This document shows positions 2,733 to 55,556 of a stretch of DNA of 64,000 bases, piece by piece (the first letter of the stretch is position 1; each line of letters opens with the position of its first letter). The stretch spans positions 1 through 64,000 of the forward strand of contig DATKYS010000132.1 of the NCBI GenBank assembly GCA_035528375.1, in the 5' to 3' direction. This DNA comes from a bacterium (GTDB lineage Bacteria > RBG-13-66-14). The translations under genes and the position numbers were made by a program. Below the pieces are notes generated by a model. The model worked only from the letters and a program-made list of their open reading frames with translations, searched no databases and was not told the origin of the DNA.

Positions 2733-2756
2733 AAAGGCGGCCCGTGCCGCCTTTTT
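2733..2756. terminator. Bidirectional intrinsic terminator
   Basis: A perfect 9-bp stem (AAAGGCGGC / GCCGCCTTT) with a 4-base loop and a T run. It ends the DUF3795 transcript on the plus strand; the A run on the other side lets it also stop minus-strand transcription leaving the AT-rich island. Confidence 0.85.
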
Positions 2757-2770
2757 AATATCGCTTTAAT

Positions 2771-3028
2771 TCAAACTTCATTGACTTCTTGGATGGGGGT
2801 ACCTGTACCTGAAGGGATTGTAACCACATTGAATTCCCCACAGTTAGGGCAAGTGAAAGGACTTGTGTTAAAAGTGTTAACTGGGAATATAATTTTACAC
2901 GCCGGACACCAAGCAGCTGCGTTATTTCCCAACGCCCAAATAGGAAATGACCTTCTATTTAACAGATTTTCCGGTATTTGCCTGTATGATTCTTGACCTA
3001 CTGCGCCGTATTTGTATCTCATTCCCAT
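2771..3028 (-). CDS. Small zinc-ribbon protein in AT-rich island
   Basis: An 85-residue protein, unrecognised as a family. It has two CxxC knuckles about 16 residues apart (WCPAC and TCPNC), a typical zinc-ribbon arrangement, and a polar tail. ATG at 3028 (a GTG at 3031 is the alternative) follows a purine-rich AAGGAAAGGTGAGG stretch. Base composition (about 38% GC in one line counted) is far below the surrounding chromosome. It lies downstream of the 237-residue AT-rich gene on the same strand with an 85-base gap. Probably acquired; function unknown. Confidence 0.55.
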   Translation of the reverse strand: MGMRYKYGAVGQESYRQIPENLLNRRSFPIWALGNNAAAWCPACKIIFPVNTFNTSPFTCPNCGEFNVVTIPSGTGTPIQEVNEV

Positions 3029-3116
3029 CACCTCACCTTTCCTTTAGAGTTGAAAAAATCATTTTGTCCTGATAGAGTGCTAGGTAATTTAATGTATGTT
3101 TCTGTACAGCTATATT

Positions 3117-3830
3117 TTAGTATCTGTTTATGAAATCTAAGAATTTCAAACCAGATGTGTCAATTATATTTGTGTGGTATTTGTTTGTATCATATTTATA
3201 CTTATCATCTTGAATGTTTTGTTGTTTTGTATAACCACCATATAAGAAGAAAATGTGTGTAGAGGTGATTATTGATTGAGCAATGTCGGATGGTAAGTCT
3301 GGTAATGCTTCTTTAATTAGTAAATATTGTGGACTATTAGGTGGATTGTGTTGTAAAAACCTATCATAAATGTCTTTCTGCACTGATATTTCTAAGAGAG
3401 TTAGATGTAAACTTGTTAGGCTATTAAGGCAATGTAAATAATAGTCAGCTAAATCTAATTCTATACGTTCTTTTTTTGATATATTTAAAATAGCATTTTT
3501 ATAATTATTAATTTTGCTTGTATTCTTGGCGGTTGTGGCACTTATTAAAACGTCTTCGAAAAAACAGGTGTATTCATCGGTTCGAAGAAAATTATCATCT
3601 AATATATGCTTATTCGATAATTCATTCAAACCCGCTGCTATTTCGAATAGTAATCTTTTTAATACATCAAATCTCCTTTTAGTAATTCGATAGCTAATAA
3701 TATTATCTATTGATGAACCAACTATTGGAAATGCCGTTATAAGTGGCTTAATAATAGATTCATATAGTTCTTCATGTGGTTTTGATAAATCTCTAAGGTA
3801 ATCGTATAATTTATTATTTGCTTCTACCAC
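3117..3830 (-). CDS. Hypothetical protein, AT-rich, probably horizontally acquired
   Basis: A 237-residue protein with no family I can name. It is rich in Ile, Asn and Lys with many ATA, AAT and TTA codons; three lines counted (180 bases) average about 26% GC. No signal peptide. The N-terminal third contains a PIVGS segment (residues about 35-40) followed by an amphipathic helix with RITKRRFDVLKRLL; the rest looks alpha-helical. The GTG start at 3830 lies five bases after the pilQ stop, so it could be read through from pilQ, with CGGAG at the pilQ stop serving as ribosome-binding site. A stand-alone accessory gene is possible; no defence or toxin role can be claimed from sequence alone. Confidence 0.6.
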   Translation of the reverse strand: MVEANNKLYDYLRDLSKPHEELYESIIKPLITAFPIVGSSIDNIISYRITKRRFDVLKRLLFEIAAGLNELSNKHILDDNFLRTDEYTCFFEDVLISATTAKNTSKINNYKNAILNISKKERIELDLADYYLHCLNSLTSLHLTLLEISVQKDIYDRFLQHNPPNSPQYLLIKEALPDLPSDIAQSIITSTHIFFLYGGYTKQQNIQDDKYKYDTNKYHTNIIDTSGLKFLDFINRY

Positions 3831-3835
3831 AGAGT

Positions 3836-5878
3836 TTACTCCGGGCGGACCAGGTGCGGGGTGACGAATATCAACAGCTCGCGCACCTCGTCGGAATCCG
3901 ACGTGCTCTTGAACAACAGGCCCAGTACCGGGATGCTGGATAACAGCGGCACCCCCTGCTCAATCGATTCGGTCTTGCGCCGCAGGAGGCCGCCGATGAC
4001 GCCGGTCTCGCCGTTCTGCAGCAACAGTGTGGTGCTGGCCTCGGTGGTGTCCACCTGGAACTCGAGCCCCGGCGCCGGGGTGCGGGACATCTCCGAAATC
4101 TCCGGCCGGATGTCCAGGGTTATCTCGTTGACCGAGTTCACGTGGGGGGTGACCGAGAGCTTGATGCCCACGTCGTAGAGCTCGACGTAGGTGTTGCCGT
4201 TCTCGTCGAGTAGGTTGACGGGGATGCGGCTGCCGACGAGGATGCGGGCCTCCTGGTTGTCCAGGGTGGTGATGCGGGGGGCAGAGAGGATGTTGGTGTC
4301 GGTGTCGGCGGCGTTGGCCTGGAGGGTCGCCTGGAGTGTGGCGGCGTCGAGGGCCGTGCGGCCGGTGGCGGTGAGGGTGCCGGCGTTGGACGGGGTGTCT
4401 ATGACCACCGAGTTGCCCCGGAGACCGAACTCCCAGTCTATGCCCAGCTCGGTGAGGGTGGTGATGCGCACGTCGAAAATTTTCGCCTCGATCATCACCT
4501 GGGCGGTGCGGGCGTCGAGCTGCTCGACCAGTCGGCGGATGCGGTCGCGGCGCTCCAGGGTGTCGGTGACGATGAGGGAGTTGGTCCGCGGCTCGACCTG
4601 AATCTGGCCCCGGTCCGAAATCATGGACTCGAAGCTGGCCTTGAGGCTGGCCGCCGTGGCGTAGCGCAGGGTGATTATCTCGGTGCCCACGGGCGAGGCG
4701 GCCTCGGCCTCGGCCATCTTCACCAGCTCCTCGGGGGTGTTGACCCGGATGATGGAGCCCTCGACGCGGTAGGAGAGGCCGTGGGCGGCCAGAATCACGC
4801 GCAGCGCCTCGTCCCAGGGCACGTCGCGCAGGGCGACGGTGACCTTGCCGGTGACGTTGGGCCCGGCCACGATGTTCATCCCCGTCTCGAAGGCCAGCAT
4901 CCGCAGGACGTTGCCGATGTCGGCGTCCTTCAGGTCCATGGATATGCGCTTGCCCGAGGGGATGGTGCCTCCCCCGCTCGAGCCGCCGTAGCCCGTCTCG
5001 GCGGTGTAGGTCTCGGTGGTGTGGTAGGAGGTGGAGCCGACGCCCGACTCGGCGACCTCGGCGGTGACGTAGGTCTCCACGCGCTCCAGGTCCACGCTGG
5101 AGGTGTAGCCGTAGCTCAGGCCGGCGAAGGGATCGGTCTCCTCGGTGATGACGTCCAGGTAGAGGGCGTTGCCCCGGCGGGTGATGAGGTAGGGGTAGTC
5201 GCCGGTGGTCTGGGTGACGACGCGGACGATGCGCTGGGGGGTGGTGGAGTACTGTGTGGCGCTGACCTTGACCAATCCGCCCCGGTCCAGGTAGAGGGTC
5301 GGCTGGTCGAGGTCCACCCGGGCGCCGATCAGGTCCAGCACGAAGGTCCGCGGCGATACGGTCTTAGAGAAATCGAACTTCAGCGGCGCGTCGGCGGTAA
5401 TCTCTATCCGGGTCTTGCCGATGAGCTCGCGCACCTCGATGTCGCCGACCGCGGCTATCTCCGCCGTAATCCGCTCCTCGGGCCGTCCCCCGGGCGGGGC
5501 GGGGAAGCGGACCTCGATGGTGTTGCCCTCCTTCGTCAGGTAGTAGGGTTCGAACCGGGTCAGATCAATGACCACGCGGACTATCTTGGAGGGTATCTCC
5601 GAGTACTGGCTGGAGCGGATGCGCTGTATGTTATGGCCGGTCTCGACCTTGACCAGGGGGTCGCACTGGTGGACCGAGTTCTTGATGTCCACGATGACCC
5701 GGGGCGGGTCCTCCAGGGAGAAGACGTCGTAAACCAGGGAGGCGTCGCCGGTGATGGTGACTATCTCGTCGCCGCCGGCGTCGGTGGAGAACTCGACGGA
5801 GGATACGCGGGGCGCCTGGGCGAGGGCGATCGTCGCCGACAGGAAAACGATGAGCAATAACGGGGGTCTGACTCTCAC
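3836..5878 (-). CDS. pilQ: PilQ-like type IV pilus secretin with AMIN domains
   Basis: Outer-membrane secretin through which a type IV pilus or related fibre would pass. From the N-terminus: signal peptide (RPPLLLIVFLSATIALAQ), two AMIN-like peptidoglycan-binding regions (about residues 25-110 and 135-215), a low-complexity Ser/Thr/Gly linker, an STN/N0 domain (GKRISMDLKDADIGNVLRML), an N1 domain ending in LVEQLDARTAQVMIEAKI, and the secretin barrel (LSAPRITTLDNQEARI; GVPLLSSIPVLGLLFKST; ELLIFVTPHLVRPE). GTG at 5878 is chosen (680 residues): it has GGGA seven bases upstream and a good promoter at 5916-5943, whereas the ATG at 5953 would lie upstream of that promoter. No other pil genes are in the window. 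Confidence 0.9.
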   Translation of the reverse strand: MRVRPPLLLIVFLSATIALAQAPRVSSVEFSTDAGGDEIVTITGDASLVYDVFSLEDPPRVIVDIKNSVHQCDPLVKVETGHNIQRIRSSQYSEIPSKIVRVVIDLTRFEPYYLTKEGNTIEVRFPAPPGGRPEERITAEIAAVGDIEVRELIGKTRIEITADAPLKFDFSKTVSPRTFVLDLIGARVDLDQPTLYLDRGGLVKVSATQYSTTPQRIVRVVTQTTGDYPYLITRRGNALYLDVITEETDPFAGLSYGYTSSVDLERVETYVTAEVAESGVGSTSYHTTETYTAETGYGGSSGGGTIPSGKRISMDLKDADIGNVLRMLAFETGMNIVAGPNVTGKVTVALRDVPWDEALRVILAAHGLSYRVEGSIIRVNTPEELVKMAEAEAASPVGTEIITLRYATAASLKASFESMISDRGQIQVEPRTNSLIVTDTLERRDRIRRLVEQLDARTAQVMIEAKIFDVRITTLTELGIDWEFGLRGNSVVIDTPSNAGTLTATGRTALDAATLQATLQANAADTDTNILSAPRITTLDNQEARILVGSRIPVNLLDENGNTYVELYDVGIKLSVTPHVNSVNEITLDIRPEISEMSRTPAPGLEFQVDTTEASTTLLLQNGETGVIGGLLRRKTESIEQGVPLLSSIPVLGLLFKSTSDSDEVRELLIFVTPHLVRPE

Positions 5879-51921: not shown

Positions 51922-52274
51922 ATGAGGTCGTGGAAATCCTGAAACGCCTGCTCGTGGTCAAAGAGGTCAAGGTCGCCGTGGTGGTCGGGGAGGACGGGCT
52001 CGTGCTCGATTCCGCCGGCTCCGAGGAGGCCGACGTCGAGGCCATCGGGGCGATTTGCGCCAGCGGCTACCTCTCCTTCAAGCAGATCGGCGAGGAGCTC
52101 AACTACGGGGCCGTAGTCCAATCCGTCACCCGATTCCAGTCCGGCGTCATCGTCCTCTCCCGGCTGCCCAACCAGCTGACCCTGGCCGTGGTGGCGACGG
52201 AAAAGGCCAACCTGGCCAAGGTCTGGGACGCCACCGGCGGAATAATCACCGACATGGCGCGGCTGCTGCGTTAA
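51918..52274 (+). CDS. Roadblock/LC7 domain protein
   Basis: 118 residues, a complete Roadblock/LC7 domain: LLVVKEVKVAVVVGEDGLVLDSAG (in part residues 10-33), EAIGAICASGYLSFKQIGEEL, and SGVIVLSRLPNQLTLAVVAT. Such proteins bind Ras-like GTPases; in bacteria MglB is the GAP of MglA. No MglA-type GTPase is in the window. GTG at 51918 overlaps the TPR stop (GTGA). Confidence 0.85.
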   Translation: MNEVVEILKRLLVVKEVKVAVVVGEDGLVLDSAGSEEADVEAIGAICASGYLSFKQIGEELNYGAVVQSVTRFQSGVIVLSRLPNQLTLAVVATEKANLAKVWDATGGIITDMARLLR

Positions 52275-52289
52275 GGACTCGCCGCGGAA

Positions 52290-52889
52290 TTGGATTATCA
52301 AACCCGACTCATCGAGGCCGCTCTGGCTGCCCTGGACGAGCGCCGGGGCGGCCATGTGCTGAGGACCGCCCAGGTCGCCGCCGGGCTTTCCCCGGGGATG
52401 GAGGGAAGGTTCCGCGAGCTCTCCCTGCCGGACGAGGAACCGGTCGCCGGTGTGCCGCTGTCCTCGCGGGCCTATCTGGCCGGCATCCTGCACGATTCAC
52501 ACCGCGACGGCTCCGGCCCCACACCCGATTTCCCCCTGGACGAGATTGAGGCGCGCTACCCCTGGAAGCTCGCCCACGCCGCCCTGGCGGCCCAGTTCGC
52601 CTACGATGGGGGACTGCGCGACGCGGGCGTGCTCTTCGCCGTCCGGTACCACACCATCGGCCACCCCTCGCCGACGCCGCTTCTGTGCTCCCTGATGCTG
52701 GCCGACGCAATCGAGCCGGGCCGCGCGCACGAGGGCGTGGAGGAGATTCGAGAAACCGCCGGGCGCGACCCCGTCGCCGCCCTGGTTAAGCGTCTGAAGA
52801 GCACCACCGGTTTCGTCGCCGCTCAGGGGCTCGAGGTCCACCCGAACGCCCTGGCCCAGATAGCGACCCTGGAACGGGCTTTAAAATGA
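52290..52889 (+). CDS. yqeK: YqeK-like HD-domain phosphohydrolase
   Basis: 199 residues. HD-domain ligands: the early His in GGHVLRTAQVA, the HD pair in AGILHDSHRD (about residues 64-73), LAHAALAAQFAYDGG, and the YqeK-specific VRYHTIGHP and LADAIEPGRAHEGVEEIRE. YqeK enzymes hydrolyse diadenosine tetraphosphate symmetrically. The yqeK-rsfS order is conserved in many bacteria and supports the call. TTG start at 52290; the stop overlaps rsfS by ATGA. Confidence 0.8.
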   Translation: MDYQTRLIEAALAALDERRGGHVLRTAQVAAGLSPGMEGRFRELSLPDEEPVAGVPLSSRAYLAGILHDSHRDGSGPTPDFPLDEIEARYPWKLAHAALAAQFAYDGGLRDAGVLFAVRYHTIGHPSPTPLLCSLMLADAIEPGRAHEGVEEIRETAGRDPVAALVKRLKSTTGFVAAQGLEVHPNALAQIATLERALK

Positions 52890-53726: not shown

Positions 53727-55556
53727 ATGCCTCTGGAAGATTTAAAGAAAAGCCTGTCGGCGATAATCGGCAAAACGGCCGAGGGGCTCTTCGACCTCCC
53801 GGACGGCCCGCCCGCCTTCGACCTCTCGCCCTCGGCGGAGCCGAAATTCGGGCACTTCGCCTGCAACCTGGCGTTGCAGCTCGCCGGTCCGCTGAAGCGC
53901 AGCCCGCGGCAGATTGGCGAGGCATTGGCCGGAGAGTTGGAGAAGGTTTTTGGGGATTTGGTGGAGCGGATCGAGGTCGCCGGGCCGGGTTTTTTGAACT
54001 TCCACCTCGCCGCCGGGGCGCAGGCCGAGCCGGTGAAGTCCATTCTCGCGGAAGAGAAGCCCTTCCTCTGGCCCGCCGAGAAGCCGCTAAAGATCAACTT
54101 GGAGTACGTGAGCGCCAACCCGACGGGTCCGCTGCTGGTGGTGAACGGCCGCGCCGCGGCCCTGGGCAGCGCGTTGGCGAAAATCCTCGTATCGGTGGGC
54201 CACCAGGTCACGGAAGAGTATTTCGTCAACGATGCTGGTAGCCAAGTGGTCGAGTTCGGCAAGAGCGTGTTCCGGGAGAATAGGGACAAGTATCGTAAGG
54301 CTGGATATGAGATACCAAATAATGTTTATGATTTGGGTAACGAGGGAGGCTATGCAGGTGATACTACTTCTGATGTAGCTGACACTGTTTATAAGAGCTT
54401 TATAGAAGAATACATGGCGACTACGCGAAAAATGATCTTTGACGAAAAAGCATATATAGATGAAGTAAATAACAGTGTAGTTGCTCAGCTGGAAAAGCAA
54501 CAAATTACATTAAAACGATTTGGTTGTTTGTTCCAACAGTTTTATAAAGAGCACTATCTCTACTTCCCATCGGTTCGTCCATCCTATAGGAGCGTACTTG
54601 AAAATTATATTTTAAACGATGAATTATACATTGAGCGACTTCCAGGCCCAATTCGGGATGCCCTTTACCTACTTAAAGAGCTACGGATCGCCTACGAGTC
54701 CGAGGGCGCGGTCTGGCTCAGGACCACCGACTACGGCGACGAGAAGGACCGCGTCATCGTCCGCTCCAACGGCAAGCCGACCTATCTCCTCACCGACATC
54801 GCCTACCACCTGGACAAGTGGGAACGGCTCGGCGGGGACGAGTCGGGACGCCTGATGATTGACATCTGGGGACCGGACCACCACGGCCACATCCTCCCCA
54901 CCAAGGCCGGCCTCCAGGCCGCCGGCATCCCGCCGGACAGGCTGGAGGTTTTAATCTCCGGTTGGGTGACGCTCAAACGCGGCGGCGAAATCGTCTCCAT
55001 GAGCAAGCGCAAGGGGAACATCGTCACCCTGGACGAGCTTCTGGACGAGGTCGGGGTGGACGTGGCGCGGTACATGTTCCTCGAGCGCTCGCCCGAGGCG
55101 CACCTGGACTTCGACCTGGACCTGGCCGTCCAGCAGTCCTCGGAGAACCCGGCGTACTACATCCAGTACGCCCACGCGCGCATCGAGAGCATCTTCTCCG
55201 TGGCCCGGGAGGAAGGTTTTAGCGAGGATGAGCTTGGCGATGCCTCACTGGCGGAAGCCGACCTGACGCCCCTCTTTACCGACGACGACGCGGGCGAGCG
55301 TCAGCGGGAACTCCTGCGGCAGATAATCTTCTACCCCGGCGTGGTCGCGGGCGCCGCGGCGGGCTACGCCCCCCAGCGCGTGACCGCCTATCTGCACAAC
55401 CTGGCCGGCGTCTTCCACCCGTACTACAAGAAGGTCAAGGTGCTGGTGGAGGAACGGGGGACGGCGCTGGCGCGGCTCGCTTTATGCCGGTCGTTGCAGA
55501 AAATCCTGGCCCACGGGCTCGGCCTGTTGGGCATATCGGCCCCCGAGTCCATGTAG
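53727..55556 (+). CDS. argS: Arginyl-tRNA synthetase with AT-rich central segment and altered HIGH motif
   Basis: 609 residues, class I synthetase. N-terminal additional domain (about 1-115, FGHFACNLALQLA), SANPTGPLLVVNGRAAALG (about 128-146) where the family normally has PLHVGH, ATP and Arg site YFVNDAG, GAVWLRTTDYGDEKDRVIVRSNGKPTYL (in spans), TDIAYHLDKWERL, WGPDHHGHI, the KMSKS loop as SMSKRKGNIV, and a DALR anticodon domain (QYAHARIES; AYLHNLAGVFHPYY). Bases about 54285-54660 have 37% GC by count against about 65% around them, yet stay in frame. Upstream ATG at 53727 has no strong Shine-Dalgarno sequence. Last gene of the yqeK-rsfS-rlmH run. Confidence 0.93.
   Translation: MPLEDLKKSLSAIIGKTAEGLFDLPDGPPAFDLSPSAEPKFGHFACNLALQLAGPLKRSPRQIGEALAGELEKVFGDLVERIEVAGPGFLNFHLAAGAQAEPVKSILAEEKPFLWPAEKPLKINLEYVSANPTGPLLVVNGRAAALGSALAKILVSVGHQVTEEYFVNDAGSQVVEFGKSVFRENRDKYRKAGYEIPNNVYDLGNEGGYAGDTTSDVADTVYKSFIEEYMATTRKMIFDEKAYIDEVNNSVVAQLEKQQITLKRFGCLFQQFYKEHYLYFPSVRPSYRSVLENYILNDELYIERLPGPIRDALYLLKELRIAYESEGAVWLRTTDYGDEKDRVIVRSNGKPTYLLTDIAYHLDKWERLGGDESGRLMIDIWGPDHHGHILPTKAGLQAAGIPPDRLEVLISGWVTLKRGGEIVSMSKRKGNIVTLDELLDEVGVDVARYMFLERSPEAHLDFDLDLAVQQSSENPAYYIQYAHARIESIFSVAREEGFSEDELGDASLAEADLTPLFTDDDAGERQRELLRQIIFYPGVVAGAAAGYAPQRVTAYLHNLAGVFHPYYKKVKVLVEERGTALARLALCRSLQKILAHGLGLLGISAPESM

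Follow-up and report, generated by a model that had tools for sequence, protein, structure and literature searches.

A sharply bounded, AT-rich connective module, replaced or extremely fast-evolving, in the sole argS gene of a Candidatus Coatesbacteria genome

Aminoacyl-tRNA synthetases are usually viewed as enzymes that evolve slowly and uniformly or that are transferred as whole genes. The gene described here, argS of a Candidatus Coatesbacteria genome, codes for an arginyl-tRNA synthetase (ArgRS) that has the domain order, the KMSK-type loop, the invariant ArgRS residues and the overall fold in common with the ordinary bacterial enzyme (TIGR00456). Its likeness to mosaic genes, such as those coding for the target-recognition domains of DNA methyltransferases and the specificity subunits of restriction systems, lies in conserved flanks around a sharply bounded, divergent and AT-rich centre that stays in frame. 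With diversity-generating retroelements it shares very local variation inside an otherwise conserved gene. As for the class I signature motifs, KMSK is degenerate in many ArgRS (PMC8318970), and mutation of the HIGH histidines lowers the activity of TyrRS (PMC5919687).

The 64,000-nucleotide stretch analysed (hereafter the window) comes from a Candidatus Coatesbacteria MAG (G000) of 2.63 Mb, assembled in 144 contigs and about 100% complete. The argS gene forms one open frame of 609 codons (Table 1). Protein, Pfam and TIGR00456 searches of the genome recovered this gene as its only ArgS, which argues that the enzyme is active. Three further genomes of the genus, one per species, served for comparison; one of them (G002, 96% complete) is without argS in its assembly, probably because of an assembly gap.

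Table 1. Features of the argS locus, in window coordinates.
Feature	Coordinates	Strand	Basis
argS, arginyl-tRNA synthetase, 609 aa	53727..55556	+	Pfam PF03485, PF00750 and PF05746 above cut-off; TIGR00456, 310 bits
LVVN (residues 137-140), where class I enzymes typically carry HIGH	54135..54146	+	alignment with other ArgS
Collapsed tract; no other part of argS diverges strongly from G001	54269..54701	+	blastn blocks stop at 54268 and resume at 54702
Core AT-rich patch (37% GC), coding for about residues 184-319, the helical connective module	54277..54683	+	maximal-scoring segment; GC3 0.36; predicted helices
MSKR, intact KMSK-type loop, residues 425-428	54999..55010	+	alignment

The central part of argS stands out by its base composition. 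A reading of the window from its sequence alone had counted 133 G or C among the 360 bases 54301-54660 (36.9%) and had placed this patch in frame within the expected part of ArgS; both statements hold, the patch lying inside the single open frame and spanning the helical connective region from the second conserved block (VNDAGSQ) to GAVWLRTTDYGD. The lowest value over 360 bases is 35.8%, at 54275-54634. All three codon positions are affected, with G+C fractions of 0.51, 0.31 and 0.36 at positions 1, 2 and 3 in the patch vs. 0.66-0.68, 0.41 and 0.84-0.90 in the flanks. Such a dip is not a generic trait of the connective region: third-position G+C (GC3) minus that of the flanks is -0.52 here, whereas the same region of 64 ArgS from other lineages averages -0.03 (sd 0.05, minimum -0.21). 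Milder dips of -0.21 in this region were recorded for L194 (G150, from another lineage), L142 (G006) and L138 (G010).

The one other place in the window with less than 50% GC over 360 bases is an island at 2.75-3.84 kb, which the sequence-only reading had set beside the argS patch. The island is indeed present (2752-3840, 32% GC), but it does not look like the same phenomenon: flanked by a secretin-like gene and a gene region resembling ribonucleotide reductase, it holds separate small ORFs of 86 aa (its cysteines arranged as in a zinc ribbon) and 237 aa, and for this reason looks like an ordinary accessory insertion. Across the approximately 0.99 Mb of the genome examined for AT-rich segments, four lie well inside one ORF, and only one of these besides argS is strong. 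This second in-frame patch (L111:12799-13212, on G000:C61) falls in a DNA methyltransferase-like gene (L111:11197-13992), probably at its target-recognition region, the family being read from the sequence. The segments in L077 and L101 were rejected as comparable cases, since they code for acidic, repeat-rich proteins and their GC is only mildly low. The 47 low-GC segments listed include four contigs without any G or C (L073, L074, L093 and L128, i.e., C23, C24, C43 and C78), presumably masked as N.

Comparison with the sister species G001 gives the patch its boundaries. Over the 8 kb around argS (50.5-58.6 kb) the two genomes are about 88% identical in DNA, and so are the blastn blocks on either side of the collapsed tract, within which identity falls to 41-42%. 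Against the third argS-bearing species of the genus, G003, the blastn break lies at 54278-54693, so that two sharp identity boundaries are found inside argS in both comparisons. Protein identity to G001 follows the same division, with 84-92% in the flanks and 24% in the patch; the patch is in fact nearer to that of G004, a member of another genus (46-50%), than to that of the sister species. The low-GC3 run of G001 continues beyond the patch into conserved protein, for about 14 codons upstream and 9 downstream, which is how a recombination tract would be expected to behave. In about 180 kb compared between the window's genome and G001 there are 29 collinear breaks; only the one in argS is AT-rich and keeps an open frame in each genome. 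A second break near argS, at 52051-52489, faces masked bases in G001. Elsewhere in the same comparison, similarity is lost over an equal length of 329 bases between L083:11267-11595 and L205:3831-4159, in DNA of ordinary GC whose frame is open.

AT-richness at this place is not confined to the window's genome. Both other argS-bearing members of the genus carry an AT-rich patch there (GC3 of 0.27 in G001 and 0.49 in G003), so this composition characterizes the genus: GC3 of the patches ranges from 0.27 to 0.49, that of the flanks from about 0.8 to 0.9. In the family's other genera GC3 is close to normal or slightly reduced (0.64 in G004, 0.85 in G005 and 0.70 in G006), and milder GC3 dips occur at the patch position in the Coatesbacteria G006, G010 and G009. 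The patch protein is itself of the Coatesbacteria-family type and includes the family's extra segments. A shared composition in related argS genes had been named beforehand as an observation that would refute a mosaic; the composition is shared by both other argS-bearing members of the genus, but the sequence is not, the patches being mutually only 18-33% identical in protein.

The divergence from G001 exceeds what neutral change would be expected to produce, and it extends to the codons of conserved residues. Four-fold degenerate sites are identical at 76-82% in the flanks and at 1 of 11 in the patch; where the residue is the same, the same codon is used at 77% of sites in the flanks and 41% in the patch (p = 2e-5). 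Likewise, columns conserved in the family have a GC3 of 0.31 within the patch, compared with 0.90 in the flanks. Since codons and GC3 change even at conserved residues, the DNA itself differs, beyond what the protein requires. Neutral drift simulated at the four-fold rate of the flanks left at least 69% DNA identity and at least 40% protein identity and introduced a stop in more than 99% of runs, whereas the observed patch has 41% and 24% identity and no stop. Codon bias in a well-expressed gene may restrain four-fold sites and thus lead to an understatement of neutral divergence; with four-fold identity assumed at 60%, the simulated DNA identity still stays above 53%. Neutral, relaxed drift is therefore ruled out, because the observed identity is too low and the frame is still open. 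The sharp boundaries, the codon change and the AT-rich run beyond the patch are typical of DNA that has been replaced; a strong local acceleration, with frame and fold kept by selection, could also be at work.

The predicted structures suggest a sound protein with its fold intact. AlphaFold2 models have a mean pLDDT of 88.5 for the window's protein and 88.3 for that of G001, the patch helices follow in the same order in both, pLDDT is mostly above 75 in the helices of the window's patch, and solved ArgRS structures are the first matches to the window's model.

A further peculiarity of this ArgS is the absence of the HIGH signature. The replacing LVVN is found in all six argS-bearing members of the family, and other Coatesbacteria have N-x-V-N. 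In a sample of 77 ArgS, biased in that most were best matches to a Coatesbacteria profile, HIGH is absent from 36, namely all 13 Coatesbacteria and 23 of 64 from other lineages. Variants such as NVVS, NIVS and NAVN take its place among these 36 (the window and loci L002-L006, L020-L026 and L140-L197). None of the 23 other-family genomes with a HIGH-lacking ArgS, all of them tested, has a second ArgS above the family cut-off. The KMSK-loop lysine (in MSKR or MGKR) is present in 36 of 36 HIGH-lacking and 17 of 38 HIGH-like proteins, a contrast confounded by relatedness, and HIGH-lacking ArgS have GPDH where HIGH-bearing ones mostly show GADH. In a tree built without the motif columns, holding the 36 HIGH-lacking proteins together outscored a free quick search (p-AU 0.95), which is compatible with a single origin. 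Evidently, HIGH is typical of class I but is not needed for membership in the ArgRS family. Its absence across a lineage of sole-copy ArgRS makes the textbook statement on class I catalysis directly testable. The open-access literature yielded nothing on point for HIGH-lacking ArgRS or mosaic argS, which is weak evidence.

Several sources for the patch were searched. Its DNA is present once in the window's genome, with no second copy and no near-identical template repeat, and no match to a reverse transcriptase (PF00078) was obtained there; a diversity-generating retroelement or a cassette from the same genome is thus ruled out. Phages, plasmids and viral contigs gave no match and were likewise rejected as donors, and a search of the phylum yielded no donor, relatives of the patch occurring there solely in orthologous argS genes. 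Because the patch has the family's extra segments, any donor could only be a low-GC relative carrying an ArgS of the Coatesbacteria-family type. The split-gene phylogeny proposed in the sequence-only reading was of limited help: the flank tree rejects a grouping of G000 with G004 (p 9e-8), but the patch-only tree gives no clear grouping on account of its long branches (0.75, 1.99 and 2.95 in the genus vs. 0.2-0.33 in the family's other genera), and a single clade for the genus, which costs 1.2 log units, is not rejected (p-AU 0.34).

The patch represents a module of an essential enzyme that either was replaced or evolves extremely fast, and we favor, with moderate confidence, its replacement more than once within the genus by divergent AT-rich homologues through recombination. 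According to this model, the connective module of a working ArgRS would be swapped as a block by homologous recombination between the conserved segments that flank it, the incoming blocks would derive from argS genes of that family type, divergent and richer in AT, and repetition of the process would leave each species with a different AT-rich version while the rest of the gene is vertically inherited. From the sharp boundaries, the block-wise divergence of DNA and protein, the open frame, the conserved predicted fold and the recurrence in three species, all directly observed, we infer recombination rather than local hypermutation as the cause, with donors that would be as yet unsequenced relatives of low GC content. 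Recombination with a low-GC donor had already been proposed from the sequence; the sharp division between patch and flanks at the DNA level supports a replacement, but a single transfer from one donor finds no support in patches that differ so much from one another. Indeed, if replacement is right, at least one event after the split of the window's species and G001 is required. Some observations run against it: the searches described above returned no donor, which is what holds our confidence in a mosaic at a moderate level, the patch tree does not reject one clade for the genus, AT-rich patches at one place in three species exceed what independent events would give without a common donor pool, a low-GC donor would poorly provide the flank identity that recombination needs, and the graded GC3 dips in G006, G010 and G009 hint at a graded local process.

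These dips, together with the common position of the patch in three species, its long branches in the genus and a rate about twice that of the flanks for this region in family f5 too, are what would be expected of a module inherited vertically that has undergone far faster AT-biased mutation or selected change in the genus, its frame and fold being kept by selection. We regard such a local acceleration as possible but rather unlikely, since the local rate would have to be many times that of the flanking four-fold sites, codons have changed even at conserved residues, and no mechanism was found in a genome without a reverse transcriptase or a template copy. Unlikely too, and more so, is diversifying selection on the module with AT-rich alleles pooled and exchanged through the flanks, for instance if a phage protein, a toxin or an inhibitor acts on the ArgRS surface. 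One ancient transfer of AT-rich DNA into the ancestor of the genus, followed by vertical descent and a slow return to host composition, would explain why all three argS-bearing species are AT-rich at the same place; it is quite improbable, as the window and G001 are so alike around the patch and so unlike within it, though their split is younger than such an event, a comparison that contradicts this history unless the rate of the patch was extreme as well. Low protein identity and GC3 in the patch, along with the missing HIGH signature, could suggest a module or gene that is losing its function and drifting to AT under relaxed constraint, yet the neutral simulation fails widely and predicts stops, the flanks are highly conserved in protein, no other ArgS exists in the genome and the fold is predicted intact (pLDDT 88), which makes decay very improbable. 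A chimeric assembly or a binning artefact, a concern with a draft MAG in 144 contigs and one that had been raised for this locus, is hardly credible and in practice excluded by the in-frame, ArgS-homologous, AT-rich patch found at the same position in two independently assembled MAGs from other projects.

If it is true that a module has repeatedly been swapped between close species in a gene otherwise about 88% identical, a surface of this essential enzyme would be under unusual pressure, and phylogenies based on argS would be misled. The selective reason can be conjectured to be, e.g., an escape from something that binds the surface of the module.

Set against the ordinary bacterial ArgRS (TIGR00456), the window's enzyme differs by the larger connective module of its family, by LVVN in place of HIGH and by the extreme variation of that module inside its genus. 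Unlike diversity-generating retroelements, the argS case comes without a reverse transcriptase or template repeat in the genome, and third codon positions and conserved residues are altered too. The target-recognition domains of methyltransferases and the specificity subunits of restriction systems have the same architecture of conserved flanks around a divergent centre; in contrast to these mosaic genes, the gene at this locus is single-copy and codes for an essential aminoacyl-tRNA synthetase, and neither a donor nor an alternative allele was found for it.
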